Of a stretch of DNA of 23,078 nucleotides, positions 1-17,300 are shown piece after piece. A model generated the notes under the pieces. That model saw nothing but the letters and a program-made list of their open reading frames with translations. It did no database searches and was not told the DNA's origin. This stretch comes from a virus. The translations under genes were made by a program, and so were the position numbers. How positions within the stretch are numbered: the stretch's first letter is position 1; the number at the start of each line of letters is the position of its first letter. The DNA is taken from IMG/VR virus record IMGVR_UViG_3300028899_000031, positions 1-23,078 of that record. One strand, given 5' to 3'.

Positions 1-775
1 TAAAGAACATATCTATCCATTAAAAACATCCGATAATCTTTGTCTTGCTGGTGGTGTTGCTTACAATGGTTATGTAAATGAAATGTTTACCGAAAAATGG
101 GATAATGTTTTTATTCCACCTGCAATTGGTGATGAAGGCCAAGCTATTGGTACTTATCAACATGCTGAATATACAATAAACAATAGAGTACACAAGTCTA
201 ACGTATATGCCGGCAAATCATACGAGTATATAGGCGAAAAAAAATTAACGTCTTATAAAGAAATAGCACAAGAAATCGCCGATGGTAAGATAGTAGGTTG
301 GTTTCAAGGTAAATCAGAAAGTGGTAACAGAGCATTAGGTAATAGAAGTATATTAGCTGATCCTAGAAATCCAGAAATAAAAGATATTATCAATAGTACA
401 ATAAAAATGAGAGAAGATTTTAGACCATTCGCTCCAGCAGTTTTAGAAGAACATTATAAAGAATATTTTGAGACAAATAGTCCTAGTCCTTATATGTCAA
501 GAATATGTAAAGTAAAAAAAGATAAAAAATCAGTAGTACCTGGAATTACTCACGTTGATGGTACTGCTAGAATACAGACAGTTAACAAAGAAGATAATAA
601 TAAATTTTATGAACTTATACGAGAGTTTGGTGTTATCACTGGTGTTCCTATGTTGCTTAATACAAGTTTCAATTGTCAAGAGCCTATAGTAGAAACACCT
701 CAAAATGCATTAAGAACTTTTAAAAGAACAGGATTAGATATATTAATTATTAATGATTATGTGGTAAGAAAATGA
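1..775 (+). CDS. NodU/CmcH-family O-carbamoyltransferase, C-terminal part (5' end outside window)
   Basis: The reading frame is open from base 2, so the first visible ATG at 83 is internal and the gene begins left of the window. The family transfers a carbamoyl group from carbamoyl phosphate, through carbamoyl-AMP, to a hydroxyl of a sugar or natural product. The visible part starts at the end of the Kae1-like catalytic domain with the family motif NLCLAGGVAYNGYVN. It continues through the C-terminal domain with SGNRALGNRSILADPR, RPFAPAVL, VDGTARIQTV and GVPMLLNTSFN, all hallmarks of this family. The stop (773-775) overlaps the next start as ATGA, which implies translational coupling. In this setting it probably decorates a sugar or related metabolite made by the downstream genes. 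The family call is firm; the substrate is unknown and the N-terminal metal-binding histidines cannot be seen. Confidence 0.9.
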   Translation, partial: KEHIYPLKTSDNLCLAGGVAYNGYVNEMFTEKWDNVFIPPAIGDEGQAIGTYQHAEYTINNRVHKSNVYAGKSYEYIGEKKLTSYKEIAQEIADGKIVGWFQGKSESGNRALGNRSILADPRNPEIKDIINSTIKMREDFRPFAPAVLEEHYKEYFETNSPSPYMSRICKVKKDKKSVVPGITHVDGTARIQTVNKEDNNKFYELIREFGVITGVPMLLNTSFNCQEPIVETPQNALRTFKRTGLDILIINDYVVRK

Positions 776-1605
776 TTTATAAAAATAAATTTGGTGAAAT
801 TGATATATTAAATTCAAAATATAATTTTAATAATAAAACTATAGCCATATCTATGTCTGGCGGATGTGATAGCACTATGTTATGTTATTTGCTTGCAAAA
901 ACTATACAAAAGGAAAAATTAAATATTATTATACAACCATATAATGGTTACGATATTGATATACCACACGATTCTGAAAATGTGCCAAACATTATAAAAT
1001 ATATGCAAAATAAATTTCCAGGTGTAATAAGATGGCCAATGGGGGTGGTTTATAAAACTTTAAGTAATGAAAAAACTGTTCTAGGTACAGGTACAGGAGA
1101 TAGTATAGTATTAGAAGATGAGATAATTAAACAAGATTTGCCATTTAAAGGAAATAAAATTCTTTTTGAATCAACTAAAGATAAAAATTTTTATATTCAC
1201 CCATTAAGAGATTTAATTGAAGAAAAAGTAATTGGAAATCATAACGGTATAACAATTGTAGCACTTTCACAAGGTCCTCCTTTAAAAGCACAACAAGATA
1301 TGATAAAAAAATACAATAAGGTACCTAGTCCACAATCAATACAAAGAATAAAAGGATATTATGATTCAGAAGATTTAAATGAACTGCCCAATGAAAAAAG
1401 GAAGTGGTATAATCATGTAAATGAAGAAGTACCTAATGCACCATTTAAATTTATTGATAAACGATTTATAATACAATGTTATAAAGATTTTAAAATGATG
1501 GATGTTTTAAATGAAATGACTGAATCATGTACAAAACCTGGTGGAAAATGTGGAACCTGTTGGTGGTGTAGAGAAAGAGAATGGGCAATGGAAGAAGTAT
1601 GTTAG
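772..1605 (+). CDS. PP-loop ATPase with QueC-like Cys4 site (copy 1)
   Basis: A 277-residue adenine-nucleotide alpha-hydrolase-like protein. The PP-loop SGGCDS (residues 29-34) binds ATP, and proteins with it usually adenylate a carboxylate or amide before amination or thiolation. The C-terminus has C253, C260, C263 and C266, a C-X6-C-X2-C-X2-C pattern close to the zinc site of QueC (7-cyano-7-deazaguanine synthase). I do not see the QueC central motif of the VPGRN type, so a true preQ0 synthase role is doubtful. It overlaps the upstream gene by 4 bases and the downstream start by 7. A second member of the same family lies at 5159-5914. Other options are a tRNA-thiolation-like or amidotransferase-type PP-loop enzyme. 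The PP-loop assignment is firm; the substrate is not known. Confidence 0.75.
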   Translation: MIYKNKFGEIDILNSKYNFNNKTIAISMSGGCDSTMLCYLLAKTIQKEKLNIIIQPYNGYDIDIPHDSENVPNIIKYMQNKFPGVIRWPMGVVYKTLSNEKTVLGTGTGDSIVLEDEIIKQDLPFKGNKILFESTKDKNFYIHPLRDLIEEKVIGNHNGITIVALSQGPPLKAQQDMIKKYNKVPSPQSIQRIKGYYDSEDLNELPNEKRKWYNHVNEEVPNAPFKFIDKRFIIQCYKDFKMMDVLNEMTESCTKPGGKCGTCWWCREREWAMEEVC

Positions 1606-2222
1606 ATTTAAATTTATTAAAAAATATAATGAGTGAGATTAGAGAGAATGATGATCTATTAGATTCATTAAGTCCTAATCAATTCAATACTAAATTAAAA
1701 CTTATAGAACACATTAAAAAGGTAGTACCATTAGAAAAAGAAGATGATATAGCTATCTTTGGTTGTTGGTATGGTAGTATATTAATACCTGCTTTTTATA
1801 ACGAAGTTAAAAGAATTACGGCCATAGATTTAGACCCACAAGTTATTAGTAGAAACAAGTATAGAATATATCCTGGATATAAACAACTTGATTTTGTATC
1901 TAAAGATTGTTTTGAATGGGCTGAAGATTCTAATAGAATTAAAAGAACAAAACTAATTATTAATACTTCTTGTGAACATATGAAACCTATGAGAGACTTA
2001 AAGATTTTAAGTGAAATAAATTCTTACTTTGCTTTTACATCTAATAACATGTATGATATTGAAGGACATATAAACTGTGTAGATACAATAGAAGATTTTA
2101 AAAAACAGTTACCAGATACGGCAACAGTTCTTGCTGAAGAAAAGGTAACAGACTATAGAGGAACAAGATTTTTATTAATTGGTAAACTGGAAACAGATAC
2201 ACCAGCACACTATAAGGAGTAG
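1599..2222 (+). CDS. Class I SAM-methyltransferase-like protein
   Basis: A 207-residue protein with a Rossmann-type SAM-binding pattern. Strand 1 is followed by a glycine motif (IAIFGCWYGS, residues 51-60), and an acidic strand 2 end (AIDLDP, residues 75-80) would hold the SAM ribose. The C-terminal part (YRGTRFLLIGKL) looks like the closing beta strands. I chose the ATG at 1599 rather than the upstream in-frame ATG at 1581. A GGAAGAAG ribosome binding sequence sits just ahead of 1599, and this start gives the short stop/start overlap (ATGTTAG) typical of this operon. The motif I sequence GCWYG is unusual because tryptophan and tyrosine sit in the glycine loop, so a SAM-binding fold with another function remains possible. 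The methyl acceptor is unknown. Confidence 0.6.
   Translation: MLDLNLLKNIMSEIRENDDLLDSLSPNQFNTKLKLIEHIKKVVPLEKEDDIAIFGCWYGSILIPAFYNEVKRITAIDLDPQVISRNKYRIYPGYKQLDFVSKDCFEWAEDSNRIKRTKLIINTSCEHMKPMRDLKILSEINSYFAFTSNNMYDIEGHINCVDTIEDFKKQLPDTATVLAEEKVTDYRGTRFLLIGKLETDTPAHYKE
2214..2219 (+). promoter_or_regulatory. Shine-Dalgarno AAGGAG deciding the 2224 start
   Basis: A perfect AAGGAG ends four bases before the ATG at 2224. An in-frame ATG also exists at 2179, inside the preceding gene, but it has no comparable site. This supports the shorter protein. Confidence 0.7.
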
Positions 2223-2223
2223 G

Positions 2224-3078
2224 ATGAAAAGAGTTATATTCTCCTTGTATATTAATATACCTAAAGAGGAGTTAGACTTATTTGATAAACATATAAAGAA
2301 ACCAGAAACAGAGTTTACAAATATTAATACTAAAAATGAATTTGAAACTCATTACCAAAGACTAATAGATTGTAAAAAAGAATATGCTGATAAAATAGGC
2401 GTAGACTTTTTTATGCATGAAGAATATAAAGAATATTACGATCACTTTAGAAAAAATTATCCAGAAATTACAAGTTATAATATAGTTAACTTTTTTAAAA
2501 TACATTTACTATATGAGTATAGTAAAAAATATGATGAAGTATTATACCTAGACTTTGATGTTGTTCCTAATACAGACGAAAACTTTTTTGACCATTGGGA
2601 TTTATCAAAAGGTGTTTGTGTTTTAAATAATAATGAAAGAGTATCTCCTATTCAAAAGATTACAGAAAGAACACAAACAATAAGAAGTCCAAACGCAAAA
2701 TTTTATAATGCTCAAGCTATGTTAATAGAAAAAGGTTTAAGTCCTGAAAATGATGTTATTAATACAGGTATAATAGGTATTGATAAAGAACATTTAGATC
2801 AATTAGAATATTTTACAAATTTTAAAGAAACTCTTAATGAAATGACAAGACTTATAGGTGTATATGATATATTTCCTAAAAAGATTGCTGATTTCTTTGG
2901 TTATGATAATGAAACAATATTTGCTGTGAAACTAAAAGAAAAGAAAGTACCAGTACAATGGTTAGATAAAGATTGGCACTATTTCTTTGATACAAATCTT
3001 TTTATTCCTAAAACTGCCAAACTTATACATGCTATTAATAAAAGGTTTGATATAATTTGGAGAAACATTGATGATTAA
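2224..3078 (+). CDS. Glycosyltransferase-like protein with DXD motif (1)
   Basis: A 284-residue soluble protein with no signal peptide or membrane segment. A beta strand ending in a DXD motif (EVLYLDFDVVPNTDENFF, about residues 105-122, D110 and D112) is the nucleotide-sugar and metal site of GT-A fold glycosyltransferases. The pattern of a hydrophobic strand, DXD and then a short helix is repeated in the next gene. A later segment (NTGIIGIDKEHLDQL) resembles the acceptor-side region of GT-A enzymes. The start is set by a strong AAGGAG at 2214-2219, and the gene follows its neighbour with one base between. It probably transfers a sugar to the product of this cluster. The exact GT family, donor and acceptor cannot be told from the sequence alone. 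Confidence 0.65.
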   Translation: MKRVIFSLYINIPKEELDLFDKHIKKPETEFTNINTKNEFETHYQRLIDCKKEYADKIGVDFFMHEEYKEYYDHFRKNYPEITSYNIVNFFKIHLLYEYSKKYDEVLYLDFDVVPNTDENFFDHWDLSKGVCVLNNNERVSPIQKITERTQTIRSPNAKFYNAQAMLIEKGLSPENDVINTGIIGIDKEHLDQLEYFTNFKETLNEMTRLIGVYDIFPKKIADFFGYDNETIFAVKLKEKKVPVQWLDKDWHYFFDTNLFIPKTAKLIHAINKRFDIIWRNIDD

Positions 3079-3850
3079 AATATGTACTGTATACTTCAAA
3101 GGCATGTATACACCAGATTATGTTGCTAACTTATATGATGGACTGAAAAGAAACAGTACAATACCTTTTCAGTTTATTTGTTTAAGTGATGACCCTAACG
3201 TAAAGGCCGATGTAGTATTACCATATAATCATCATAGTACTATTGTAAAGCACTGGCATAAATTAAAATTTTTTAGTCCTTTATTTGGTGGTCAACAACC
3301 AAGTGATGAGATTGTTATAATGGATATAGATCAAGTTATTGTAGGTAATGTAGATGATCTTATAGGACATCCAGTTGGCGATGATGAGTTAGTATCATAT
3401 GGTGTATTTTGGAATGAAAGATTACATACTAACAGATTAAAAGATAATAACATATTACCTTTGAATGGTGGTTTTTATAAATTTAAATCTGGCCAATTCA
3501 AGCATATATGGGATGATTTCGCACTTAATCCTGAATATTGGCAATTGCATTATTACAATGTAGGTAAAGTACACTTTAAATATTATGGCGAACAAAACTA
3601 TGTTGATTGGAAAATATTTGAAAAGAAAAGTAAACTTACTAATACACCACAAGAATGGTTAGGTAAGTATACAGAAAACGGAAAAGATATGATAAATCTG
3701 AACAAGATGTATGCAAAAAAATTTGATACAGATTATATGTTGTTAGATGAACCAAATGAAAAATTAAAGATTGTACACTATACAGGTCCGAATCGTGTTA
3801 TTCACGAACTAAAAGACAGCCCTTTGTATAGTAAGTGGATAAATAGGTAA
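3071..3850 (+). CDS. Glycosyltransferase-like protein with DXD motif (2)
   Basis: A 259-residue protein that begins with a typical GT-A first strand (MIKICTVYFKG) and a nucleotide-binding region (FQFICLSDDPNV). It has a DXD motif at D85-I-D87 within IVIMDIDQVIVGNVDDL, a pattern very like GT8-type enzymes. LNGGFYKFKSG further on matches the usual acceptor or donor loop, and HYTGPNR near the C-terminus resembles the late His motif that helps bind metal and phosphate. The ATG at 3071 is preferred over an in-frame TTG at 3068. It overlaps the upstream gene by 8 bases and ends directly against the radical SAM start. The likely role is a second sugar transfer on the same product. The fold call is good; the specificity is unknown. 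Confidence 0.7.
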   Translation: MIKICTVYFKGMYTPDYVANLYDGLKRNSTIPFQFICLSDDPNVKADVVLPYNHHSTIVKHWHKLKFFSPLFGGQQPSDEIVIMDIDQVIVGNVDDLIGHPVGDDELVSYGVFWNERLHTNRLKDNNILPLNGGFYKFKSGQFKHIWDDFALNPEYWQLHYYNVGKVHFKYYGEQNYVDWKIFEKKSKLTNTPQEWLGKYTENGKDMINLNKMYAKKFDTDYMLLDEPNEKLKIVHYTGPNRVIHELKDSPLYSKWINR

Positions 3851-5137
3851 ATGGACGAGAAACAAAAAAAAGAATTTGAACAAAAGTTAAAGGATAAGAA
3901 ACTATGGTTTTGTCCTTTACCTTTCACACATGTATTCTCTAGTTTAAGTGGTAGATTTGCACCTTGCTATGACGCACTAGCAAGAACTGGCCATAATATG
4001 GAAGATACTACAATAAGAGAATGGTATACTTCTGACTATCAAAACACTTTAAGAAAAGAAATGTTAAAAGAGGATTATAATGGTAAATTCTTTAAACATC
4101 ATTGTACAGGTTGTTGGAAACAAGAATCAAAATATGGTCGTTCAGATAGACAAAAATATGTTGAACAAATATTAGCAGGTACATTTGATAGTAAAGTACC
4201 AGAGTTATTAAGAGCTGTTCAAAAATTTCAAGATGACGGTAAGTTAGATTTAGATGAAAGAATATTAGACATTAAAATGAAGATGTTTGGTAATGCTTGT
4301 AATCTAGATTGTTATATGTGTACACCAAGAAGTGCTAACACTAGAACTATATCTCTAAAAAACTTAAAGAAAGTATATGATCCTGATTTAGACCCTAAAG
4401 ACGGTGATAGAATGAATACTTTAAAACATGATGATGTAGAATATCTAGATGATATTGCCTCTGTAGCAAAATATACTAGATCAATCAAACTAATTGGTGG
4501 CGAACCTTTAGTTATGGTAAATCATTATAAACTATTAGACAAATTAGTAAAAACAGGTTACTCAAAAGGTATAGACTTAATATACAAAACAAATTTATCT
4601 GTATTTGATATGGACGGTTACAACTTTAGAGATTACTTTGACCACTTCAAAGAATTTGTAATGAAAGTATCTATAGATAGTTATGGTAAATATAATGACT
4701 ATATAAGAAAGAAATCAGATTGGCCTTCACTTTTAGATAACATAAAAACAATGAGAGCAAGAAGAAATGCAAGAGTTAATATTCACTCTGTAATATCTTT
4801 TTTAAGTGTATTAGAAAATTATAAACTAATTGCATTATTAAAAGATATGGGTATAGCACATACGTTCTATATTATAGAATATCCAAAAATCTTACAAGTT
4901 AAAAATTTACCATATGAAATAAAACAAAAATTAATACCTTTTTATAAAGACTATCCTAACATTATAAGATCATTAGAAAAGGAACAAGATGAAGCAGAAT
5001 TTATTAAGACTATTGAATATTGCCAAGATTTAGATGAAAATGGCTTCAGTAAGGAAAAAGGACATGATTTATTTGCACTACATCCAGAACTAGAAGAACA
5101 TTATATAAAGGCGAAACAACGTGAGACAAGACATTAA
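3851..5137 (+). CDS. Radical SAM protein with N-terminal twitch/SPASM-like Cys region
   Basis: A 428-residue protein. The radical SAM core has C150-X3-C154-X2-C157 (NACNLDCYMCTP), which binds the 4Fe-4S cluster that cleaves SAM, and GGEP at 216-219, which contacts SAM. Ahead of it lies a region with C21, C39, C85 and C88 (FCPLPFTHVFSSLSGRFAPC, then CTGCWKQE). This matches the twitch/SPASM-like region placed N-terminally in a family common in marine phages, and it could hold an auxiliary cluster. The gene starts on the base after the previous stop. Such enzymes perform difficult C-H chemistry on sugars, peptides or nucleosides. No candidate peptide precursor is visible next to it, so a sugar or nucleoside substrate is more likely. 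That last point is inference. Confidence 0.85.
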   Translation: MDEKQKKEFEQKLKDKKLWFCPLPFTHVFSSLSGRFAPCYDALARTGHNMEDTTIREWYTSDYQNTLRKEMLKEDYNGKFFKHHCTGCWKQESKYGRSDRQKYVEQILAGTFDSKVPELLRAVQKFQDDGKLDLDERILDIKMKMFGNACNLDCYMCTPRSANTRTISLKNLKKVYDPDLDPKDGDRMNTLKHDDVEYLDDIASVAKYTRSIKLIGGEPLVMVNHYKLLDKLVKTGYSKGIDLIYKTNLSVFDMDGYNFRDYFDHFKEFVMKVSIDSYGKYNDYIRKKSDWPSLLDNIKTMRARRNARVNIHSVISFLSVLENYKLIALLKDMGIAHTFYIIEYPKILQVKNLPYEIKQKLIPFYKDYPNIIRSLEKEQDEAEFIKTIEYCQDLDENGFSKEKGHDLFALHPELEEHYIKAKQRETRH

Positions 5138-5146
5138 ATAATACTT

Positions 5147-5154
5147 GAAGGAGA
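5147..5154 (+). promoter_or_regulatory. Strong Shine-Dalgarno GAAGGAGA before the second PP-loop gene
   Basis: It sits in the 21-base gap after the radical SAM gene, with GGAG five bases from the ATG at 5159. It is among the strongest ribosome sites on the plus strand, which suggests independent and efficient translation. Confidence 0.65.
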
Positions 5155-5158
5155 TATT

Positions 5159-5914
5159 ATGAAACTAACATATGGCAATCAAACTATTGACCTTTTTGGA
5201 AAAGATAATTTTCCAGACGGACCATCAGAAAAGGTAGTAGTATCATTATCAGGTGGTTGTGATTCATCATCACTTACATATTTAATAGGAACTCATTTTC
5301 CTAATATAGATATGTACCCTTTTCATGTCAAAGATACAGACTGTCCTATAGACACTGAAAGAGCTATAGAAGTACATCAATGGTTACAAAACAAATTTCC
5401 CAAACTACATGATCTAGAGATATTTACAGTAGCAACATCTGATCCAGTTTGGCAAGAAAAAGCAAGAATAGAAATGGAATCACCAAGAGGTAAAGTTATA
5501 GTAAATGGTAAAGAAGCTTCTATATGGGGAAATCAAAATGGCGCCTCAAAGGCACTACAGTGTAGAGATAAGAGATCAAAAATGTCACTAAAACATAACG
5601 CACCAGTTGTTATGGCTATGACTTGTAATCCTCCGATAAGTGTACAAAAAGAAAGAGGATTTTATGATGTAGCGGAAAGAAAACGTGATCCAGGAACAAA
5701 CAATTTAGATATGACAGATACAATACCTGCAGGTGGAACTACACACCAACCTTATTTAAGAAACGATAAGAAATTTGTAGCAGGTGTTTTTAAAAAACAT
5801 AATCTAATGGATACTTTACTTCCTTTAACTAAATCATGTGCTTGGTCTAAAACACTTGAAAATTGTGGTAAATGTTTTTGGTGTAATGAGAAACAATGGG
5901 CTTTTGAAGATTAA
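5159..5914 (+). CDS. PP-loop ATPase with QueC-like Cys4 site (copy 2)
   Basis: A 251-residue relative of the protein at 772-1605. The PP-loop is SGGCDS (residues 31-36). The C-terminus has C227, C236, C239 and C242, spaced C-X8-C-X2-C-X2-C as I recall for QueC. Both copies share the tail pattern SC...CGxCxWC...E.QWA or REWA, so they are clearly paralogous, but they differ in the middle and act at separate points of the cluster. As in copy 1, the VPGRN-type central motif of QueC is absent. It probably activates an acid or amide with ATP. The two copies might handle successive steps or form a heterodimer. A strong ribosome site precedes it, and 18 AT-only bases separate it from the ATP-grasp gene. 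Confidence 0.75.
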   Translation: MKLTYGNQTIDLFGKDNFPDGPSEKVVVSLSGGCDSSSLTYLIGTHFPNIDMYPFHVKDTDCPIDTERAIEVHQWLQNKFPKLHDLEIFTVATSDPVWQEKARIEMESPRGKVIVNGKEASIWGNQNGASKALQCRDKRSKMSLKHNAPVVMAMTCNPPISVQKERGFYDVAERKRDPGTNNLDMTDTIPAGGTTHQPYLRNDKKFVAGVFKKHNLMDTLLPLTKSCAWSKTLENCGKCFWCNEKQWAFED

Positions 5915-5932
5915 TAATTATAAAATTATATT

Positions 5933-7018
5933 ATGGATTATGAAATTAAATGGTGGAACTCCGAGTTAGTCAATAAGGAAACTTTACCTAAAAATATTCT
6001 TATATTAAATGCTCGTTTAAAAACTGAACTACTAATAGAGTTTTGTTTAATACATGGCATTAATTTTAAGATGTTTGAACTGGACGGATATCGTGTAAAC
6101 ATAAGTCCAAAATTAGCAAAATATACTACATATCTTCCAAGAGAACAATTATACGATCCACAATATTATATTCAAAATTTAGATTTTGTACCTGATATGA
6201 TTATTAATTGGAGAGACGAAGAAGTACCAAATGTTTTAGAATATGAACTCTCTCAATACTGGAAACCTAAAACACAATTTGATAAAAGAGCTTTAAAGTT
6301 TTTTTCATCTAAAAGAGAACAAGACAGAGTATGTAAACTAATGGGTGTACCTACGTTAGATGAAGGAAAACCTGGCGATAAGATTATAGTAAAATTAGAT
6401 TCAGGAGAAGGTGGTGGAGGAGACGGTTATAAATCTGCAATTAAAGGAGAATATCAACCGAAGAAAAATGATTTTATACAAAGATATATAAATTACGAGT
6501 ATTCAATTATTCAAATGGTACTATGTGATAATGATGGAGAATATCATATATATAATCATACTATAGGTGTGCCAGGAAATGGTGTTCAAATGGGTCAAAA
6601 TATTCCATTTATGTATCAATTTCCACACAACAAGTTTCCTAAAGAAGAAATGTATATAATAAAAAATTTTTATAAAAAGTTAAAAGAACATATAACAGTA
6701 AAGAATAGAATTGTGGCAACAGAATGGTCTAAAGAAAAAAATGGTAAACTACATTTTCAAGAATTTAACTCTAGACCTTTTGGTCAACTTGAAATTGGAT
6801 CATATTGCTGGGATATAGGTAAATTTAATACAGTAGTAGATTTTTTTACACAAAAAGTCCAACCTGAAATAGAATATTATCAACAAATAACATCGGTGTA
6901 TCTTGATAATATCCGTACTAATAAACCATTTGGTTGGGGTCATTATAAAGACTTGGCTCTTGTAAAACTTCCTTATTCAGAAAAAATAAAAACATGGAAC
7001 ACAAAAGATTCTATATAA
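5933..7018 (+). CDS. ATP-grasp ligase-like protein
   Basis: A 361-residue protein with the layout of ATP-grasp carboxylate-amine ligases. An N-terminal pre-ATP-grasp region (ILILNARLKTELLIEFC) is followed by a helix, KREQDRVCKLMGVPT (127-141). A strand with the ATP-binding lysine K154 leads to a glycine loop, SGEGGGGDGY (157-166). FIQRYINYEYSI (181-192) matches the hinge and adenine-binding segment. FQEFNSRPFGQLE (275-287) supplies Mg ligands E277 and N279. Such enzymes join a carboxylate, through an acyl phosphate, to an amine or thiol. No ribosome site is visible in the AT-only 18-base gap before its ATG. Its 3' end overlaps the SDR gene by 25 bases. The substrate is unknown. Confidence 0.75.
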   Translation: MDYEIKWWNSELVNKETLPKNILILNARLKTELLIEFCLIHGINFKMFELDGYRVNISPKLAKYTTYLPREQLYDPQYYIQNLDFVPDMIINWRDEEVPNVLEYELSQYWKPKTQFDKRALKFFSSKREQDRVCKLMGVPTLDEGKPGDKIIVKLDSGEGGGGDGYKSAIKGEYQPKKNDFIQRYINYEYSIIQMVLCDNDGEYHIYNHTIGVPGNGVQMGQNIPFMYQFPHNKFPKEEMYIIKNFYKKLKEHITVKNRIVATEWSKEKNGKLHFQEFNSRPFGQLEIGSYCWDIGKFNTVVDFFTQKVQPEIEYYQQITSVYLDNIRTNKPFGWGHYKDLALVKLPYSEKIKTWNTKDSI

Positions 7019-7500
7019 CAGGAACAAGACGTGGCTTAGGTAAAGCACTCGTAGAAAAATATGGTACAGTGGATAAATTACAAGACTGTGATATTTTTAT
7101 TAACTGTAAGCATGATGGATTTGAACAAGTAAATCTTTTATATCAAGCGGCTGATTTAAAGAAAAAAATAATTAATATTGGTTCTCTTGCTAGTGATTAT
7201 ACGTATCTGTATCGGTATGGTGTTGAGAAAAAAGCTTTAAGAGAAGCTAATCACCAATTATTTAATGATGGAATTGATACAACAATTATAAATTTTGGTT
7301 ATATAGATACAGAAAGAGTACAAGATAAAGATGTTCCTAAAATGAGTGTTGAGTATTGTTGTGGTATTATTCATTGGGTTTTACAACAACCAAATAGAAT
7401 TAAAGAAATAACAGTTTGTCCACCTGAAAAAAAGATTAAATCTAATTTTGGTCCAGATGATGACAAAATTAAGGGTGTAGCTCATGCTAAATTTGAATAA
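6994..7500 (+). CDS. Short-chain dehydrogenase/reductase, compact
   Basis: A 168-residue Rossmann oxidoreductase. TGTRRGLG (residues 9-16) is the TGxxxGxG dinucleotide-binding motif. A conserved serine (S64 in NIGSLAS) and Y75-x3-K79 (YGVEKKAL) form the catalytic set, so it is likely active. IINFGYIDTE near residue 100 is the usual strand after the active site. The double arginine in the glycine loop would favour NADP(H), which is inference. At 168 residues it is clearly shorter than the usual 230-260, lacking much of the segment between strands 2 and 4. It overlaps the upstream gene by 25 bases and the downstream one by 17. It probably reduces or oxidises a hydroxyl or keto group in the cluster product. 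Confidence 0.75.
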   Translation: MEHKRFYITGTRRGLGKALVEKYGTVDKLQDCDIFINCKHDGFEQVNLLYQAADLKKKIINIGSLASDYTYLYRYGVEKKALREANHQLFNDGIDTTIINFGYIDTERVQDKDVPKMSVEYCCGIIHWVLQQPNRIKEITVCPPEKKIKSNFGPDDDKIKGVAHAKFE

Positions 7501-7963
7501 AATAAAAGAAGAAATAAAAACTCTACCTAAATGGGACGAACAAATAGGTTTACAAGGTACAGAAACTATTAAAGACGGCCATGTTGGTGGCATGACAAAT
7601 TTTTATGATAAGTTTGAGTACGAAGATGAAAAAAAATTTATACATCCAATATTTGATATACCTTATATCAATTCTATTATGAAAGAACATAATTTATATA
7701 GAACTAGGTTGATGAATTTAAAACCTAAAACTTGTTATACTTACCATCAAGATTATGAAAAAAGATTCCATATACCTTTAATTACAAATAATAATTGTTT
7801 CTTTATTATTGATGATGAAGTTAAAAGGTATCCAGCAGATGGTAATTGGTATATAATTGATACGACTAAAAAACATACTGCTGTTAATGCTTCAAGAGAA
7901 GATAGAATCCATTTAGTAGGAAATAAAATAAGTATAGGTGATGTAATAGAGATTGATACATAA
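7484..7963 (+). CDS. Aspartyl/asparaginyl beta-hydroxylase-like 2-oxoglutarate oxygenase
   Basis: A 159-residue double-stranded beta-helix protein. H88-x-D90 (YTYHQDYEKRFHIPL) and H131 (KKHTAVNASRED) fit the Fe(II) facial triad. R141 in DRIHLVGN fits the 2-oxoglutarate carboxylate ligand of the aspartyl/asparaginyl hydroxylase family, whose members show the same R-H-I-P-L and H-x-V-x-N pattern. Eukaryotic members hydroxylate proteins; the substrate of this phage one is unknown and could be the small molecule made here. An AAGGG lies eight bases before the ATG at 7484. The stop overlaps the next start as TAATG. Confidence 0.75.
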   Translation: MLNLNKIKEEIKTLPKWDEQIGLQGTETIKDGHVGGMTNFYDKFEYEDEKKFIHPIFDIPYINSIMKEHNLYRTRLMNLKPKTCYTYHQDYEKRFHIPLITNNNCFFIIDDEVKRYPADGNWYIIDTTKKHTAVNASREDRIHLVGNKISIGDVIEIDT

Positions 7964-8583
7964 TGTACACTATAAAAAAACTTAAAACCTGTACGCTATT
8001 GAATTTAATTGATTTTGAAAGCAATAGTCTATTATCAGGTGATAGGGCTTTAAATGATTTGCGTTTTAGTAAATTAAAACAATTGTTGTTTGAAACTCCG
8101 AAATTTGATGACTTATGTATAGTAACTGAAAATTTAGATGAGTATGGTTATAATACTAGAATGAATGAACTATTTACTGAAGTTAATAACAGATATTATT
8201 GGCTAGAGTTACCAAACTTCAACGAGGGATATGATAGATTTGACAAAGAAAATCCATTTAACTCCATTAAATTTATTAAAAAAGAATTTAAAATTTTAGG
8301 AACTGAAATTAAAAATGTAATTGTGGCAGGTCAAAACTTACCAGGTTGTGTTTTTAAATCATTAGATCACTCTGCTTTACGTTGGGCTGAACAAGGACAT
8401 CATGTACAGATAGTATTATCTATGTGTGGCGATTATGAAGTGTCTGGTGTTGGACCAGAAAAATATATGAACTCATTTGCTAATTTATATAAACAAATTA
8501 AAAAATCTGGACAATGGGCTAATATTGATTTAGTATCTGAAATTAAAGATATAAAATTTTTTAAAAATGGTGAAGTAATATGA
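7963..8583 (+). CDS. Unknown protein of the biosynthetic cluster
   Basis: I do not recognise this 206-residue protein. The N-terminal half is rich in charged and aromatic residues (for example RYYWLELPNFNEGYDRF). The C-terminal half alternates hydrophobic strands and helices, with NVIVAGQNLPGC and HHVQIVLSMCGDY, and could be an alpha/beta fold. No signal peptide, membrane helix or clear metal motif is visible. It is coupled to both neighbours (TAATG at the start, ATGA at the end), so it very likely works with the hydroxylase-like and glycosyltransferase-like proteins on either side. Confidence 0.6.
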   Translation: MYTIKKLKTCTLLNLIDFESNSLLSGDRALNDLRFSKLKQLLFETPKFDDLCIVTENLDEYGYNTRMNELFTEVNNRYYWLELPNFNEGYDRFDKENPFNSIKFIKKEFKILGTEIKNVIVAGQNLPGCVFKSLDHSALRWAEQGHHVQIVLSMCGDYEVSGVGPEKYMNSFANLYKQIKKSGQWANIDLVSEIKDIKFFKNGEVI

Positions 8584-9164
8584 GAAGAATAATAGCTTGT
8601 AGATTCGGTAATAAGTTTACACAATGGCATGTTGATAATTTAAAATATATGATAGATTTCCATTCTGGAATATCATATGATTCTTTTGAAGTTATTGAAA
8701 ATGATATTTACGGTAATTGGTATAATAAATTCCAAATGTACGATAAGTTCCGGGATGGGGAGAACTTATACTTTGATTTAGACGTTATTATATGGAAAAA
8801 GTTACCAGATTTATTCAGAAAAGACTTTACTTTATTAAATGATTTATGGTGGAGAGAAGAAGCTCATACTCCATTAAACTCAACTATTGTCTCTTGGACA
8901 GGAGATGTTTCTCACATATGGAAAAAATTTAAAGAAGCTGACACGTGTTACCTGGAGATGTATAATAAAGGTAGTGATGAGTTTTATTATAAAGAAATAG
9001 AATACAAAAACTATGATAAAGTTTGTCCTTCTATTAAAAACTATATGTATGAAATTCCACCAAAAGAATTTAGTATCTGTACTCTAGGTCAAATGAACCA
9101 CCTTTTAGAACCTGGTTGGAAAGGTTGGTGGTCAGATTTTATTTTACCTCACAATAAAGATTGA
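8580..9164 (+). CDS. Short glycosyltransferase-like protein with DXD motif (3)
   Basis: A 194-residue protein similar in pattern to the one at 3071-3850. It has a first strand (RRIIACRFG), then WYNKFQMYDKF and a DXD at D66-L-D68 within NLYFDLDVIIWKKLPDL. The corresponding segment in the longer protein is WHKLKFF followed by MDIDQVIVGNVDDL. It is short for a GT-A enzyme (usually about 250 or more) and lacks an obvious late His motif, so it may be a minimal or acceptor-modified form. It is the last plus-strand gene. It begins with an ATGA overlap and ends inside the 3' end of the convergent gene (26-base overlap). Confidence 0.6.
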   Translation: MRRIIACRFGNKFTQWHVDNLKYMIDFHSGISYDSFEVIENDIYGNWYNKFQMYDKFRDGENLYFDLDVIIWKKLPDLFRKDFTLLNDLWWREEAHTPLNSTIVSWTGDVSHIWKKFKEADTCYLEMYNKGSDEFYYKEIEYKNYDKVCPSIKNYMYEIPPKEFSICTLGQMNHLLEPGWKGWWSDFILPHNKD

Positions 9165-9660
9165 GAGCACCCTTTAATAATTCAATTCTAGTTTTACATT
9201 TTCTTAATGCTTTCTTACCATCAAGATTTTTAGAATCTCTTATCTTATCTATTTCAAACAATGCAATCTTTAAAGCAAACATTTCATCTTCGGTTGCTTC
9301 TTCAGGATTAAAAATAAAATCAAGAACTCTATTAGGAGAAGTATCATCTGTTTGTACAAGACCCTCTCTTTTAGCAATAGCTAAAGCTACCTGTTCAAAT
9401 TCTTTTTTTTGTTCTTCATTGTGACGATATGTACTCTCATGTATTTTTTCTATATTGGTAACTTTCATTAATGATATAAAGTATGGATGTTTTTCATCAA
9501 ACTCAACGTGAGTAGATGTAAGACTTTCTTTATTTTCATTAGTTAATACTTCAATCCAATCTCTTTTACTACTAGTAAATCTAGCGTCAACGAAATATTT
9601 TAACATTTCATCACCAAATCCTACTTCTTTATGTTCTCTTTTCATTATTTCAATTGACAT
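9139..9660 (-). CDS. Unknown 173-residue protein at the end of the structural operon
   Basis: I do not recognise this protein. It is soluble, charged and mostly helical by composition. It has a long C-terminal helical stretch (FALKIALFEIDKIRDSKNL, then KKALRKCKTRIELLKGAL) and no signal peptide or membrane segment. The start at 9660 follows an AAAGGA ribosome site and overlaps the upstream epimerase gene by 11 bases. Its 3' end overlaps the convergent plus-strand gene by 26 bases. Being last in a tail-gene operon suggests a virion or assembly role, but its coupling to the epimerase could equally link it to sugar modification. Confidence 0.7.
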   Translation of the reverse strand: MSIEIMKREHKEVGFGDEMLKYFVDARFTSSKRDWIEVLTNENKESLTSTHVEFDEKHPYFISLMKVTNIEKIHESTYRHNEEQKKEFEQVALAIAKREGLVQTDDTSPNRVLDFIFNPEEATEDEMFALKIALFEIDKIRDSKNLDGKKALRKCKTRIELLKGALNLYCEVK

Positions 9661-10384
9661 TTTTATTTTCCTTTATATAATTGTATAGGTCAGTTTTAAC
9701 CGACCAGTTTAGTTTATTCAAAATTTTAGTATCTGCTGTATTATCTTCTCTTTCAAATTCATTACCTACCCTTTTTTCTTTGAAATCAATTCCAAAATAC
9801 ATTATCATCTCCAGCAAATTATAAGATTTTCCTATACCTATATCTGTTACACCTGTAAATTCACTTTTCATTAAAGTGTCAATAGCAGATATTATATCAT
9901 CTACATGTATAAAATCTCTTGTATGATTAGTATGTACAAATGGTACATCGTTTCTTAATATTCTTGGTATCAACATATGCTCCCTAGCGCCTGGACCGTA
10001 TACAGTTGTAAATCTCATACCGATACTGTTTTCTGGTGCAATTTGTTCCAAAGAATATTTACTCATAGCATAAGGGTTACGCCAAGGCTCTATGGCCGTT
10101 GAAGAACTTGCATATAATATTTTTGTATTTGGAAAATAATCAAATAGTCTTTGACCTGCAATTACATTTTCTTTCCAGTATTCTGTAGGTCTATCTAAAC
10201 TATCTCTAACTCCTGAAAGGCCAGCCAAGTGTATGACTAAACCTACATCGTATTTAAGGTCACAATTTAATAAATCGTTACCTGATAATTTGTCTATTGG
10301 GATTACTTTGTGATCGTTGTTTTTTAAATGCTTATGAAGGTGTTTTCCTATAAATCCTTCACTGCCTGTTAATAATATATTCAT
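9650..10384 (-). CDS. NAD-dependent nucleotide-sugar epimerase/dehydratase
   Basis: A 244-residue extended short-chain dehydrogenase. It has G7-x2-G10-x2-G13 (GSEGFIG) for NAD(H), HLAG at 52-55, the serine strand YASSSTA at 91-97 and catalytic Y105-x3-K109 (PYAMSK). RFTTVYGPG matches the family's substrate-side motif, and RDFIHVDDI follows it as usual. Members act on UDP-, GDP- or dTDP-sugars as 4-epimerases or 4,6-dehydratases. At 244 residues it is shorter than the common 310-340, with a reduced C-terminal substrate domain. It lies on the structural strand, 16 bases after the fiber-like gene, rather than with the sugar genes on the plus strand. The class is firm; the sugar is not known. Confidence 0.88.
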   Translation of the reverse strand: MNILLTGSEGFIGKHLHKHLKNNDHKVIPIDKLSGNDLLNCDLKYDVGLVIHLAGLSGVRDSLDRPTEYWKENVIAGQRLFDYFPNTKILYASSSTAIEPWRNPYAMSKYSLEQIAPENSIGMRFTTVYGPGAREHMLIPRILRNDVPFVHTNHTRDFIHVDDIISAIDTLMKSEFTGVTDIGIGKSYNLLEMIMYFGIDFKEKRVGNEFEREDNTADTKILNKLNWSVKTDLYNYIKENKNVN

Positions 10385-10400
10385 AATAAATTCTCATTGT

Positions 10401-10937
10401 TTAAACGCCAGCGGCGTGTAGTGTTTTCAATAAACCACCAGCACTATTCTTAATTAATAAAGTTGATAGCGATTTCATTTGTGTTGAACCGACAGAGTCA
10501 TCAGCCATCATACTCTCTGTAATTAAATCAATTGATCCTGATGATATTAATTCTCCAGCTGCACTTGGAAAAGTAATTGTTTGTCCATTTAAAGTACCAT
10601 TAACTGTTAAATTAGTCATTGTTACGTTTGTTGGAAACGCAAGTGTGACTGTATCTGGACCTGAAACTGTAGCAGTAATCTGATTACTTGTACCTAGAAA
10701 AGATACAGTATTACCTGGAGCAATTAACTGAATAGTTGAGCTTGCGTCTCTAATATAGTGACCTTGTCCAGTACCTATTTGAGAAGATAACTCTACTACA
10801 GCACCAACAACAGACGTTGCTGATATTCCTGCTCCTGGTAATAGAGCTGCGTCACCAAAATCATTTAGAGCTAAATCGTTAAATTGCGTTCTAAATGTTT
10901 CTAGTGTATCCGTTCCTAGTATATTTTTTACTGCCAT
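10401..10937 (-). CDS. Fiber-like phage structural protein
   Basis: A 178-residue protein rich in Thr, Ser, Gly and small residues, of the kind seen in phage tail fibers. The N-terminal 30 residues (VKNILGTDTLETFRTQFND) look like a virion-attachment segment. A beta-rich middle has VTMTNLTVNGTLNGQTITF, and MMADDSVGSTQM precedes the end. The C-terminal STLLIKNSAGGLLKT (158-172) closely matches the C-terminus of the protein at 18869-19795. It follows the large structural protein and two small genes in one operon. It is probably a short fiber or baseplate appendage component. No enzymatic motif was seen. Confidence 0.65.
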   Translation of the reverse strand: MAVKNILGTDTLETFRTQFNDLALNDFGDAALLPGAGISATSVVGAVVELSSQIGTGQGHYIRDASSTIQLIAPGNTVSFLGTSNQITATVSGPDTVTLAFPTNVTMTNLTVNGTLNGQTITFPSAAGELISSGSIDLITESMMADDSVGSTQMKSLSTLLIKNSAGGLLKTLHAAGV

Positions 10938-11314: not shown

Positions 11315-14300
11315 TTATACTGCCAATGCAATACCTCTTAAATCTTTCATTACAGGTGGGTATGATGAGTTAGTACCTTTCATAACAACTTTTAATTGGA
11401 ATGTAGTGAACTCATTTAAACCACTTGCACTATATTTGTATTCTCTAAACGTATCATCATCTTCAGCAGGTGTAACAGTTGTATCTTCTAAACCTGTATT
11501 ATTAAATGCTGTCCAACCTATATCGTCAATTTTTCTTGCTTCTTCCGAAGAAGATAATCTATAATAAACGAGGACACTAGAAGTTGCTCTAACGTTTGAA
11601 GTCAATCTAATATCTAAAGCAGTTGATAAGTTTTCTAAAACAATTGGTTTAGTAACATAAACTCCTGCTGTTGATGTACCACTAGCTTCCGTATCTGCTA
11701 CATAATTTGGTGTGTTAAAGCTAGTTGCTGAATTTAATCTATTCTGAATTGTATATGCACTTACTCTTGCCATATCTAATACTGGAGATAGTTTAGTATT
11801 TGTTGTTGTAAACGTTAAGTTAACGAATAAAGATTTATTACCTGACATTTCATTAGTTTCGTTTACAGAACTTGCAACCATATTAGGTGCATTAAAGTAA
11901 ATGTTATCACCAGCAATAGTTGATATTGCTTCAGTTGATGATGTTAAACTAAACTCTGACTCATTACCATGAATTGATCTTCCAGTTGTAGGTCTAATTG
12001 AATATGTTATATTTGTTTCTGGAACTGTTACCGTAGCTAAATTCAAATTTAGTATATCATACGATCTATTTTGTGTAGCAGTGATAGTAGATCCCCCTAT
12101 ATCTCCTGTCGCTGTTGCTGTTCCTGAAGTAGTAACATCGTAACTATCTAAAGTTACATTAGAAATACTTGTATATGTTCCATTAATATCTGAATGGACA
12201 ATACCATTGTAAGTTGCTGATGGAACACCTGCAATTGTAACGTTGTTTGCTGTACCATGCATACCGTGACTAGGATGTGAAATTCTAATTACACTAGACG
12301 TATCAGTTGTTCTAATTGCATTTGTTGTTAATGTTCTTGTAGGTAAAACGTCATTACATAGAGTAACCGTACCTGTTACGTTTTCAAATTCCGCTCTCTT
12401 TATTTTAAACTTAATGTCCTCGTTTTGTTCAGCCGTCCAAGTTGAACCATTTTGTGATTTGAATAGAACACCAGCATAAGGCTGTTGAGAAATTGTTCTA
12501 TCTGAATTTATTACTTTTTCACCTAATCTACCAACATAACAATTGTAATTGTTGGTCATTGCCATAACAACAAAACAGTATTCTGTATTTTCTTGTAAGT
12601 AAACTGGTGAGTCAAAAGTAAATGTTGTAGCCGTTGTTGCGTCTGTACTTATATTTACTGAACTTGGATTTAAAGTTTTTTCACTGAAAGGAACTATTCT
12701 CTTTCCAGGATATCCGTTTACTACTTCTCTAATTTGTATTGTTACCGGAATATTAGTATCTTTTGAACTAAAATATAAATCTACTGAAGTTGCAAATACA
12801 CCACCTGCGTCATCAATCAAAAATGTTTGTGCTAATGGGTCATTCCAACCTATTGTTGTTTCGGTAATTCTTGTTCTTGTTTGTGTTCCTCTACTAACTG
12901 TTTCAACAGTACTTTCTCTAACAGTTTGAGCTTCTCTTGTAGAAATAATTGTTTCTTGTACTGTATCTAAAGCACCTTTAGCAACATAATCAGCCTCTGC
13001 TGAAGTTTGAACTGCCGTACTTAAATTGTTTGTAACTGAACTTGTTAATCTGAATACTCTTTGACCTGTTCTCCATCTTGGATTACTATTCACTTTTGGA
13101 TCAGGTATTGAAAATGTTCCTGTAACCATTCCATTAATATTTGTAACCAAATTGCCACCTAACGAACCACCGTTTGGTGTAATATAACTTGCTATGTCAA
13201 TGTTATCAAAGAAAGGATAAACTCTTGTTTCAGGTTTCATTCTAGTTGCTATAAATGTTAATGTTCTACTTCTTATAAATGGAACAAAACCAACACTAAC
13301 AACTCTATCGCCTATTGATGTTCTTATTACTTGTGGTACTATTCTTGATCTTACACCTGTTCTTGTTGCGGATATTTGACCTTGTTCATTAATCCTTGTA
13401 CGTTGGTTTATTGCTCTACCACGTCTAACTGTTCCTAAATTTTGTCTTGATACTTCTTGTGGTGTTCCTGACCAGAACTCTTGCCAATCATTCCATACAG
13501 TACCTATTGCTACACTTGTTAAATTTGGATTACCTAAACCTTGTACTAACGTATCAAAACTACCTATTCTATTAATTACCAATTCTGGTATTCTTTCAGT
13601 TTCTTTCCATTCATCACTTGGCGGAGTTAATTGAACATTACCTGCCCATGAGAATACATCAAATGGGTTTACGTTAACAAATTTACTTGCAAAAGGTTGA
13701 TCTATTAAAGTTGTTTCACTGTAAGGCAAAGTCATACAATCACCTGTTTTTGCATACTTAGCGTCTGTTCTATCTAAAGCAGTTATTGAAGTACCGTCAT
13801 CATCAGCTTCTATTAACTGTACGGCATCCTCATGGAACATAGGTCTCATTTCACCTCTTGCCATATCCATAGATACTTTGTAATCTAAATTTCCTGCGTC
13901 ACCAACACTATGACCTGTAAAGTTATCTACTAAAAATCCATTTTTAAATCTGTCAAAACCTTCGGCGTCTTGTATTTGTAAATTTGCTGCTTGTATTTCT
14001 AAAAGAGATAATTGAGTATAATATTCTGTATTTTCAAGTCTGTTTTCTAATCTACCAATGTCTCTCATTGTATATCTCTTATTATCTACTTTAGTAATAT
14101 CAATAGTGTCTGTTGTTAAAGTGTAAGCAGGTATATCTAAAGTGTATAAATGCATTGCACCATCTAAATTTTTAGGCGATTGTGGTATTAAAGCACTTGC
14201 ACCTCTAGCTACTTGAAAATTACCATCTTTGTCTACAAAAATTTTATCTATTCTTGATAAGTAATATTCTAAATCTGAAGATATATCAGAACCAAATTTA

Positions 14301-17300
14301 GCAACATCTACAGTTGAAGCACCTGTACCGTCATAATCTCGGTCCTGGTATCCTCTATTAATTCTAGCCTCGTCATCAACTCTTGGTCTGAAATCTAAAC
14401 AATCTCTTAACTCATAAGTGTCTCCAGTTGTATCCGAAGTATGAGAAGGAATATCTGCATAATCAACAGCGCCTGAATAACTATCAACAGTGAAAACATC
14501 TCCTGAACCGTGAGAGAAGTAATCAACACTAATTTGAATAGAACCTGTTGGATCTACTGCACCTGTATTTAAAGTTATTCTACCTATATCATAGAAGTTA
14601 TCTCTTTGACCATTGTCTAAAGTAAATCTATCTGTAATATCAATTTCTCCACTATTACTATAAGAACCAAAGGCAGTTGCCATTTTAACATAGTTTAATT
14701 TGTAAATATCACATTTATTTAATCTCATACCACCTTGTTTTTTAATATCTGCTAAACTTGTATGATTTCTTGTAAATCCTGTTACCAATGTTTTTGTTTT
14801 TTCTTCTACTACTGATCTAACAATAGTAGCTAAGACTTTGATTTTATGTCCTGCATAATTAGCACCAAAATCTAAAATTATTGATTTACCTACTGGCGAA
14901 CCAGTTAATGAAAATATTACATCACCTTCATGGTTATTTCCAGTTAAACTTAAAAAATCTCCTGTCGTACCTGTGCCACCTGAACCTGTTGACATTATTG
15001 AAACAGAAAAATCATATTCACCCATAGAAGGGAATACTTCGTTTGTACCTGCTGAAAGAGTTGCGTCTCCATTTGATCCTAATGTTGCTGTAAAGTGTCT
15101 TCTAACTTTAAAGTTTGTATCACTAGCACCAGAGTTAACAGTTGTTTTTAATGTCTTAACATTTTCATAAGGTAATCTGAATATTGAAATGTTTTTATCT
15201 GAATCTTTAAATGTTGTTCTATTTCTATTTGCATTTGATTTAGTTGAAACATCTGAACCACCAACTGCACTAGATATTTCTAAAGAAGTATCTGAAATAA
15301 TAGCTTCAATAATTCTTGTTAGTGAAGTACCTGCGTCTGTAGTAAATGTGATTGAATCACCTACTCTTAATTCTGTATTAAATTTTGTACCAAAACCTGT
15401 AATTGCGTTGCTACTGTTTGCAACTGATATTGTACCTGTAATCTGTAAACTTTCTCCGTATGTAAAATCTATAAGAGTATCTGCTGTAAATGCCGGAGTA
15501 CCAGCCATACCAATTTGTTTTGTAGATGTGAAATCATATGAAGTAACACCTTTAAATCCTCTAGCGTCTGCTTGAATAGCAGCCGTGTTTGATGAAATGC
15601 CACCTGTTATAGTTTCTCCAGCTGTAAATGTTCCGTTTACATTAGATAAAACAACAACTGATTGATCTGCCGTACCACCACTTGTATATGAAGTAAAACC
15701 ACCACCGTTTACATCTAATTCAAAATTTGAACTAGTTGGATTTTTTACTGTATATGTGTTACCATTTAATTCTGTCATACCACCAACACTATTGATTGTC
15801 ACTTGTTGACCATCTTTTAAAGTGTTTGTAGAAGTTATTACAACAGGATTAGCTGCTGTTGCAGCTGTTATTGAATGTTGATTATTTGTTGATACACTTT
15901 CAAAAGTACCTTTAGCACCTGAAGTACCACCTGTAATTTCTTCTCCAGTTGTAAATGCTTGGTTTTTAGGACAGTTTAAGTGTGTCATCATAACAATATC
16001 AAAAAGATAATGTTTGAAAACTGCACTTGTTAATGATGAACTTGAAAAAATATTGTTTGTAGCTGTACCTGAAGTATATTCAAATCCTCTAGATTTAGCA
16101 CGACCTATTATAGGTATATTAGAACCTGATCCTGTATTTTCTGTTCCTCTTACTGATGTTGCTGTATTATATAAACCAACTTTTTTAAAAGCTTCAACAT
16201 CACCTGAAACAAATCCAATATCTGGAGAACCATATACGTTATTAACATACACATAGTTTCCTACATCAAATCTAGTATTAGAATTGTTTTGTGTATCAAA
16301 ATCTCTTGCCTTATCTATATCTGCAAATCTTGTTCCAATAGTACTTATTTCAAAACCTTTAACGTATGCTTTACCTGGTGCTAAACCAGCAGCAATTTTA
16401 GTTTCTAATCCACCATCAGCTGAAGTGTAAATACCTCTATTATCTCCTGATAGTAAATGTTCTCTTAAATCTAAATCAAAATCTTTTATTGAATAATCAC
16501 CTGATTCGTCAAATGTTCGTCTTGCTAATGTTTCTTCTAATATTGCATAATCAGTTGTTCTAACTTGGTTTTGAATAATACCATTTTTTAATCTTAATAA
16601 CTCTACAAAGTTTGAATCGTCTGTAGCAGTTAAAGATTTTTTAGTTAATGTTAAATCTATTTTAAATCTATGAGCACCTGGAGCATTTGTATTTGAAACT
16701 CCTTGAGCATTATCATTTAAAGTTGTATCATCGTTTTGAGTTATAAAACTTTCTGTTATTATTAATCCTACTCTATAAGAAGGAGTGTTTGAATATTTTT
16801 CCAGTACTAAATTTTGTTTACTTACTTGAACATGAAATCCATTAATGTAATAAACACCTTCATTAACAGCGGCCATACTACCATCTGCTGTGGTATTAAC
16901 TACTGCTGAAACTATTGTTGCTGTTGATTGTAAAGTTGTATTTGCTGATATAGTTTCTCCATCTGTAAATGCTGAAGAAGTATTATTTGTACCTGAATTT
17001 ATATATTTAACAAGTAAAGTGTTTGGATCTGATCCATCTGTTGCTACAGTTTTAACAACTCTTGCTTTTAAACCTGAAGAAACACCTGTAAAAGTTAAAC
17101 CAACGAAATCTGTTAATACAACACCAACTGAAGCTGAATCTGTAAATGAAGTTAACTTAACAGAACCTACTATTAAGTCATAAGAAATATCGCCAGGTAT
17201 AACCATAGCGCCTTGTTCAAAGACGTGATCTGATAATCTCTCAATCTGATTCTGTAGAATAGATTGTGATTGTGTTAACTCTCTACCTTGTACAGCAAAT

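Follow-up and report, generated by a model that had tools for sequence, protein, structure and literature searches.

A plus-strand gene run beside phage baseplate genes

We analyzed a 23,078-base stretch of virus DNA from the IMG/VR record IMGVR_UViG_3300028899_000031, which we refer to as the window. Twelve co-directional open reading frames (ORFs), g1 to g12, occupy positions 2 to 9164 of its plus strand, and an earlier note, made from the sequence alone, had described them as a twelve-gene operon that looked like one full pathway. Comparisons with related viruses indicate that this run is the downstream half of a longer island beside the gene of a VrlC-type baseplate protein, and that five of its genes form an ordered backbone with two sites at which the other seven are exchanged. 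At its 3' end, the run meets tail to tail a minus-strand run consisting of g13, the epimerase gene g14, the fibre-like gene g15 and T4-type baseplate genes. The source is a T4-type, Pelagibacter-phage-like myovirus near Pelagibacter phage Mosig, and thus a relative of phages whose hosts are the most abundant bacteria of the ocean.

The overlapping or nearly abutting arrangement of the twelve co-directional genes was confirmed. Counted from refined starts, the gaps between successive genes from g1 to g12 are -4, -25, +1, -8, 0, +21, +18, -25, -17, -1 and -4 bases, so that all lie between -25 and +21. Promoter and terminator scans gave signals no higher than those in shuffled sequences, and the T4-type late promoter pattern had zero matches within the island; the case for co-transcription therefore depends solely on gene spacing. 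As a unit, however, the twelve-gene operon did not hold. The start of the window falls inside g1, leaving the N-terminus of its product outside, and in relatives the plus-strand run extends about 10-12 kb upstream of the equivalent of the window.

An ordered backbone and two exchange slots

The bait for our census of related loci was g12, and not one of the variable genes. It matched 173 viral loci, of which the nearest 80 were kept, and the frequencies given here apply to these near relatives. Clustering at 97% g12 DNA identity resulted in 39 clusters, and the 32 that had at least 6 kb of upstream sequence were taken as non-redundant islands. The genes g1, g3, g4, g5 and g12 were all present in 32 of these 32 islands, and in 31 they were arranged in the order g1-g3-g4-g5-g12. 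A radical S-adenosylmethionine (SAM) gene was present upstream in 29 islands. Divergence of g12 within this backbone reaches down to about 70% identity among the relatives.

The other genes of the window are distributed differently. g6 and g7 were found in seven of the 32 islands, always as a pair there; g11 was likewise found in seven, g2 in two, and g8, g9 and g10 in one island each. Exchange takes place at two sites, slot A between g1 and g3 and slot B between g5 and g12. In the relatives, slot A either has no recognized gene or is occupied by g2, a different PP-loop gene or an unknown gene. Slot B may likewise have no recognized gene; otherwise it is occupied by g6 and g7 with genes following them, a nitroreductase-like gene, a g6 paralogue, or split radical SAM genes. 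In the window, slot A holds g2 and slot B holds g6 to g11. Families, gene order and exchange are direct observations. Because the five genes never separate in these 32 islands, and the other seven are patchy and replaced at the same two sites, the island reads as a conserved core pathway with swappable tailoring genes, not as one fixed twelve-step pathway. Hence, the single twelve-gene pathway of the earlier note is partly supported, and the check it had proposed, co-occurrence and order in relatives, gave both outcomes: a linked core and independently occurring genes.

Another type of island was observed in two contigs, G006 (L036) and L034. Its layout is g1-g6-unknown gene-g3 followed by a strand switch, without g4, g5, g7 and g12, which indicates that g6 can exist outside the backbone.

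Upstream of g1, the order of the backbone in fully covered relatives is a glycosyltransferase-like gene, a radical SAM gene, a gene for an SGNH protein, a sugar-type aminotransferase gene and a further radical SAM gene. This upstream part contains three or more radical SAM genes, some of them split, as well as genes for nitroreductase-like proteins. The aminotransferase belongs to the DegT family (E 1e-74), and its nearest subfamily, with a score below the cut-off, is that of the PseC/LegC nucleotide-sugar transaminases. In some relatives, this part additionally encodes RibB, further PP-loop proteins and a PaaD/SufT-type iron-sulfur (Fe-S) protein; one island combines RibB (L006:4083-4715, E 1e-81) with a protein of Fe-S assembly of the PaaD/SufT type (L006:5588-5986, E 1e-12). 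RibB, MOSC and adenylate-kinase-like genes are each confined to one or a few islands.

The first backbone gene, g1 (2..775, plus strand, as are all genes up to g12), encodes the C-terminal half of a predicted NodU/TobZ-type O-carbamoyltransferase. Both Carbam_trans domains are represented: the window contains PF16861 (E 4.9e-71) and the end of PF02543 (E 4e-8), and the homologues in relatives, which are about 506 aa long and 74% identical to Mosig_00089, contain them at full length. g1 matches the O-carbamoyltransferases TobZ, NovN, GdmN and NodU, and its closest solved relatives act on sugars or antibiotics. By motif spacing, g1 has W, G and R at the TobZ positions W408, G421 and R423 (PMC8670742); these positions were not used because the paper does not state the modified-DNA state. 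In contig L144, which is binned as Omnitrophota, the carbamoyltransferase is present in two pieces, with the C-domain ORF preceding the N-domain ORF (L144:7026-8458); its neighbors are several radical SAM ORFs and KdsA- and KdsB-like ORFs.

The g3 product (1581..2222) is predicted to adopt a class I SAM methyltransferase fold, based on a structure model with a predicted local distance difference test score (pLDDT) of 86; the Pfam match has an E value of 0.04. The top PDB matches of the model are SAM methyltransferases with NodS in first place (TM scores 0.59-0.66). Profile searches of Pfam and the PDB gave no NodS match for g3, so that the likeness is at the level of the fold, and we treat it as an unspecific lead only. 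The next gene, g4, encodes a glycosyltransferase family 8 (GT8)-like protein. It probably starts at ATG 2224 (2224..3078), which has AAGGAG upstream, and not at TTG 2179, the mechanical ORF start. The GT8 domain PF01501 was found in seven of eight g4 family members (best E 2.9e-6), and the DXD motif YLDFD is invariant; profile searches gave no solved relatives of g4. The products of g5 (3068..3850) and g12 (8580..9164), the final gene of the run, are both glycosyltransferase-like and match PHROG 1962, a glycosyltransferase family, with E values of 1.3e-11 and 3e-4, respectively.

In slot A, g2 (772..1605) encodes a putative QueC-like PP-loop ATPase with a weak match to PF06508 (E 2e-5). In slot B, g6 (3851..5137) encodes an N-terminal-twitch radical SAM enzyme (NF033640, E 2e-87, 294 bits with a cut-off of 170). 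Its CNLDCYMC motif and Cys 21, 39, 85 and 88 are invariant; a profile search gave no solved relatives. In some islands, a g6 paralogue (about 34% identical, NF033640, 278 bits) is located directly upstream of g6 (L030:8599-10008 and L031:5212-6606), a pair that we interpret as a duplicated and diverged twitch radical SAM gene. The neighboring g7 (5159..5914) encodes another QueC-like PP-loop ATPase, which has a CxxCxxC site and a weak sequence match (E 1e-4). Its AlphaFold2 model (pLDDT 90) shows an ATP-pyrophosphatase fold and matches the PP-loop ATPases TtuA, QueC, TilS and Cap9; at TM scores of 0.4-0.5, this search resolves the PP-loop superfamily and no subfamily. g7 contains both SGGxDS and C(x)8CxxCxxC; the spacing of the first cysteine varies in g2 and several other PP-loop members.

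The rare slot B genes are g8 to g10. g8 (5933..7018) encodes a putative ATP-grasp ligase, for which the one match is PF13535 (E 0.029, below cut-off). A pattern scan of viral contigs found no relatives of g8, but it missed some, since homologues are present in six loci that were retrieved with g6 (L003, L006, L026-L028 and L040). Searches of phage records with g7 and g8 gave no match. g9 (6994..7500) encodes a short protein resembling short-chain dehydrogenases/reductases (PF00106, E 0.008, below cut-off), with TGTRRGLG and YGVEK corresponding to TGxxxGxG and YxxxK. The g10 product (7484..7963) is an Asp/Arg-hydroxylase-type 2-oxoglutarate oxygenase (PF05118, E 8e-12), which also matches LpxO weakly (E 6e-5). 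The last slot B gene, g11 (7963..8583), to which the earlier note gave no family, may encode an isochorismatase-like cysteine hydrolase, as PF00857 was detected in two of seven family members (E 0.0027). Overall, the family assignments of the earlier note were borne out for g1, g4, g5, g6 and g10, and at the fold level for g3 and g7; those of g2, g8 and g9, and that of g12 at the sequence level, are weak.

The host recognition cluster and related phages

The minus-strand flank is also conserved. The unknown protein gene g13 (9139..9660) overlaps g12 tail to tail by 26 bases and is located beside it in 24 of the 26 non-redundant loci with enough flank. Next to it, where the run of tail genes has its 3' end, lies g14 (9650..10384), which is present in 20 of these 26 loci and encodes a nucleotide-sugar epimerase/dehydratase (PF01370, E 8e-26; PHROG 540, E 6e-44). 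Its best NCBIfam match is GalE, below the cut-off. The longer homologues of the fibre-like g15 (10401-10937) in relatives match in two separate pieces, as would be expected for a fibre protein whose central part varies. Via g13 to g15, the island converges on the VrlC-type gene (11315..17389, minus strand), whose product shares 64% identity with Mosig VrlC across its length and 45% with HTVC008M VrlC.

VrlC is a border of the region that a survey of pelagimyophages (Zaragoza-Solas et al. 2020, PMC7029224) named the host recognition cluster. The second border, the gp14 neck gene, with the tail fibres inside, is found in the Mosig annotation and is beyond the window. According to the portion of the survey used here, its authors placed glycosyltransferases in this cluster, noticed radical SAM cassettes, and argued for an altered O-chain and for the exclusion of coinfecting phages. 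Our island agrees with that description in its place beside VrlC, its variability, its radical SAM genes and its glycosyltransferases (g4, g5 and g12). In contrast, that portion calls the region non-syntenic and does not describe the ordered carbamoyltransferase-methyltransferase-glycosyltransferase backbone with its two slots. A decorated surface sugar had thus already been proposed, and the backbone and slots are what our comparison adds.

The nearest isolate to the window phage is Mosig (EXVC030M), isolated on Pelagibacter HTCC1062, and the gp6 proteins of the two are 50% identical. Among 50,697 phage records, Mosig alone contains g12 and the backbone radical SAM gene. Its island (MT647606.1, Mosig_00083-00096) shares the backbone genes, their order and their location beside VrlC, with identities to the window of 75% (g1), 50% (g3), 52% (g4), 53% (g5), 65% (g12) and 61% (g14). 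Unlike the window, it lacks g2 and g6 to g11 and contains one nitroreductase-like gene in slot B. The portion of the Mosig genome note used here does not discuss the island.

Three contigs in bacterial metagenome-assembled genomes (L141, L142 and L143; Pelagibacter, Gammaproteobacteria and Rhodobiaceae) contain the phage backbone and appear to be phage DNA that was assigned to bacterial bins. g6 was not found in genome contigs, and 197 Pelagibacteraceae genomes gave only six weak partial matches, so g6 is no evident host gene. A carbamoyltransferase is present in 113 of these 197 genomes, nearly always of a distant type of their own, and the two host loci that we inspected lie among ordinary genes with no obvious glycan locus; for these reasons, we do not claim a host origin for g1.

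A tailored glycan as the proposed product

In our proposal, for which we see about an even chance, the backbone and slot enzymes build a phage-made glycan that contains an amino sugar, is methylated and carbamoylated, and is probably destined for the host envelope. Its substrates, product and target are inferred. A nucleotide sugar would be oxidized or epimerized and then aminated by the DegT enzyme, such that the epimerase, aminotransferase and radical SAM part would supply an amino sugar. The g4, g5 and g12 proteins would transfer sugars, g3 would methylate the product and g1 would O-carbamoylate it. The slot enzymes (PP-loop ATPases, twitch radical SAM enzyme, 2-oxoglutarate oxygenase and ATP-grasp ligase) might introduce lineage-specific modifications, for example amides, oxidations or amino-acid caps. 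The likeliest target would be the glycan on the surface of the infected cell, altered to block adsorption of competing phages, with the virion tail as the second possibility.

NodS and NodU of rhizobia both tailor the amino sugar of Nod factors. The island resembles this pair in that a NodU-family carbamoyltransferase adjoins a protein whose top structural match is NodS. It differs in that there is no sequence-level NodS match and neither a chitin synthase nor a deacetylase was seen here, so that it would at most work like the rhizobial pair. Several points weigh against our proposal. NodS is one among hundreds of methyltransferase matches to g3, without support at the sequence level, and g12 has no solved relative in the profile search. 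No surface-glycan polymerase, flippase or ligase was identified near the island, where no systematic search for them was made, and to our knowledge the many radical SAM and PP-loop genes are untypical of known O-antigen loci. Moreover, the backbone is absent from HTVC008M and Melnitz in the stretches compared, so that related phages can probably do without the island.

The glycan could instead be attached to tail or baseplate proteins of the phage itself and change receptor binding or stability. The island adjoins VrlC and the tail fibre genes in relatives with flank, and the epimerase gene g14 terminates the run of tail genes on the opposite strand. Nearness to tail genes is, however, a general trait of the hypervariable region in the portion of PMC7029224 used here, and neither an acceptor motif nor a conserved target protein was identified for tail glycosylation. 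We consider this reading unlikely, if still worth keeping in mind.

It is less probable that the island is a loose set of auxiliary metabolic genes, for instance of Fe-S metabolism, collected in a hypervariable region without a single pathway. The patchiness of seven of the twelve window genes and the sporadic RibB, MOSC and adenylate-kinase-like genes agree with such a set. So does the earlier reading of the marine T4-like genome TARA_ERS488813_N000010 (Nishimura et al. 2017, PMC5332604), whose 12 radical SAM genes and paaD were taken as Fe-S auxiliary genes. That genome resembles the relatives studied here in its wealth of radical SAM genes and its PaaD-type gene; by its published description it was read as Fe-S metabolism, whereas here the radical SAM genes lie within a glycosyltransferase island. 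Against a loose collection, which would not retain order, the five window genes and the upstream radical SAM gene (29 of 32 islands) stay together and ordered across deep divergence.

A diffusible small molecule resembling aminoglycoside or nucleoside antibiotics is a still more doubtful product. Twitch radical SAM enzymes, DegT aminotransferases, O-carbamoyltransferases, methyltransferases and glycosyltransferases are also the parts of such pathways, and the relatives of g1 include TobZ, NovN and GdmN. Nevertheless, no export or self-resistance gene was recognized, a diffusible product would be of little benefit to a lytic phage, and the location beside tail genes would be left unexplained.

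Finally, the earlier note had offered a modified nucleoside as the alternative to a decorated sugar. The modification would be in phage DNA (a carbamoylated or glycosylated base, or 7-deazaguanine) or in tRNA. Phage carbamoyltransferases are able to produce 5-carbamoyloxymethylcytosine in DNA (MetaGPA, PMC8670742), and g1 belongs to the same superfamily as these phage-encoded 5-hydroxymethylcytosine carbamoyltransferases; QueC genes, according to the portion of PMC6884629 used here, occur in phages with 7-deazaguanine DNA. In contrast to the former system, the partner gene of the thymidylate synthase type is missing: PF00303 (ThyA-type synthase/hydroxymethylase) was absent from the complete Mosig genome and five contigs, with positive controls and with the window's own full genome outside the search. 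The neighbors here are glycosyltransferase genes, and in the DNA-modification study, carbamoyltransferases flanked by glycosyltransferases belong to unmodified contigs. A gene of the tRNA-guanine transglycosylase (TGT) family was absent from Mosig and a 165-kb relative, again with positive controls. The canonical QueC catalytic motifs YxQxHxxE, VPxRN and YPDC (a signature taken from PMC13329287, published in 2026) are all missing from each of the 15 PP-loop proteins; SGGxDS and CxxCxxC are retained, and the NCBIfam QueC scores of at most 20.6 compare with a cut-off of 150. In addition, the portion of PMC7029224 used here reports that, of more than 100 genomes of SAR11, a single one has a restriction system. 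With no ThyA-type gene, no TGT gene and no QueC motifs, nucleoside modification, and DNA modification in particular, is disfavored and appears very improbable, and of the two products suggested by the earlier note the decorated sugar is the favored one.

Phages of SAR11 and its relatives are among the commonest marine viruses, and what is at issue is the role of the variable region beside their tail genes. The ordered backbone and its slots turn a region that was called non-syntenic, in the portion of the survey used here, into a pathway whose product can be tested, for which a cultured system is available in Mosig on Pelagibacter HTCC1062. The uncharacterized radical SAM and PP-loop enzymes are candidates for new sugar chemistry. 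Tentatively, a lytic phage lineage may carry its own radical-SAM-rich pathway for an amino-sugar glycan, in which the two slots beside a fixed backbone would act like serotype switching and give every strain a coat that differs chemically from those of its competitors.

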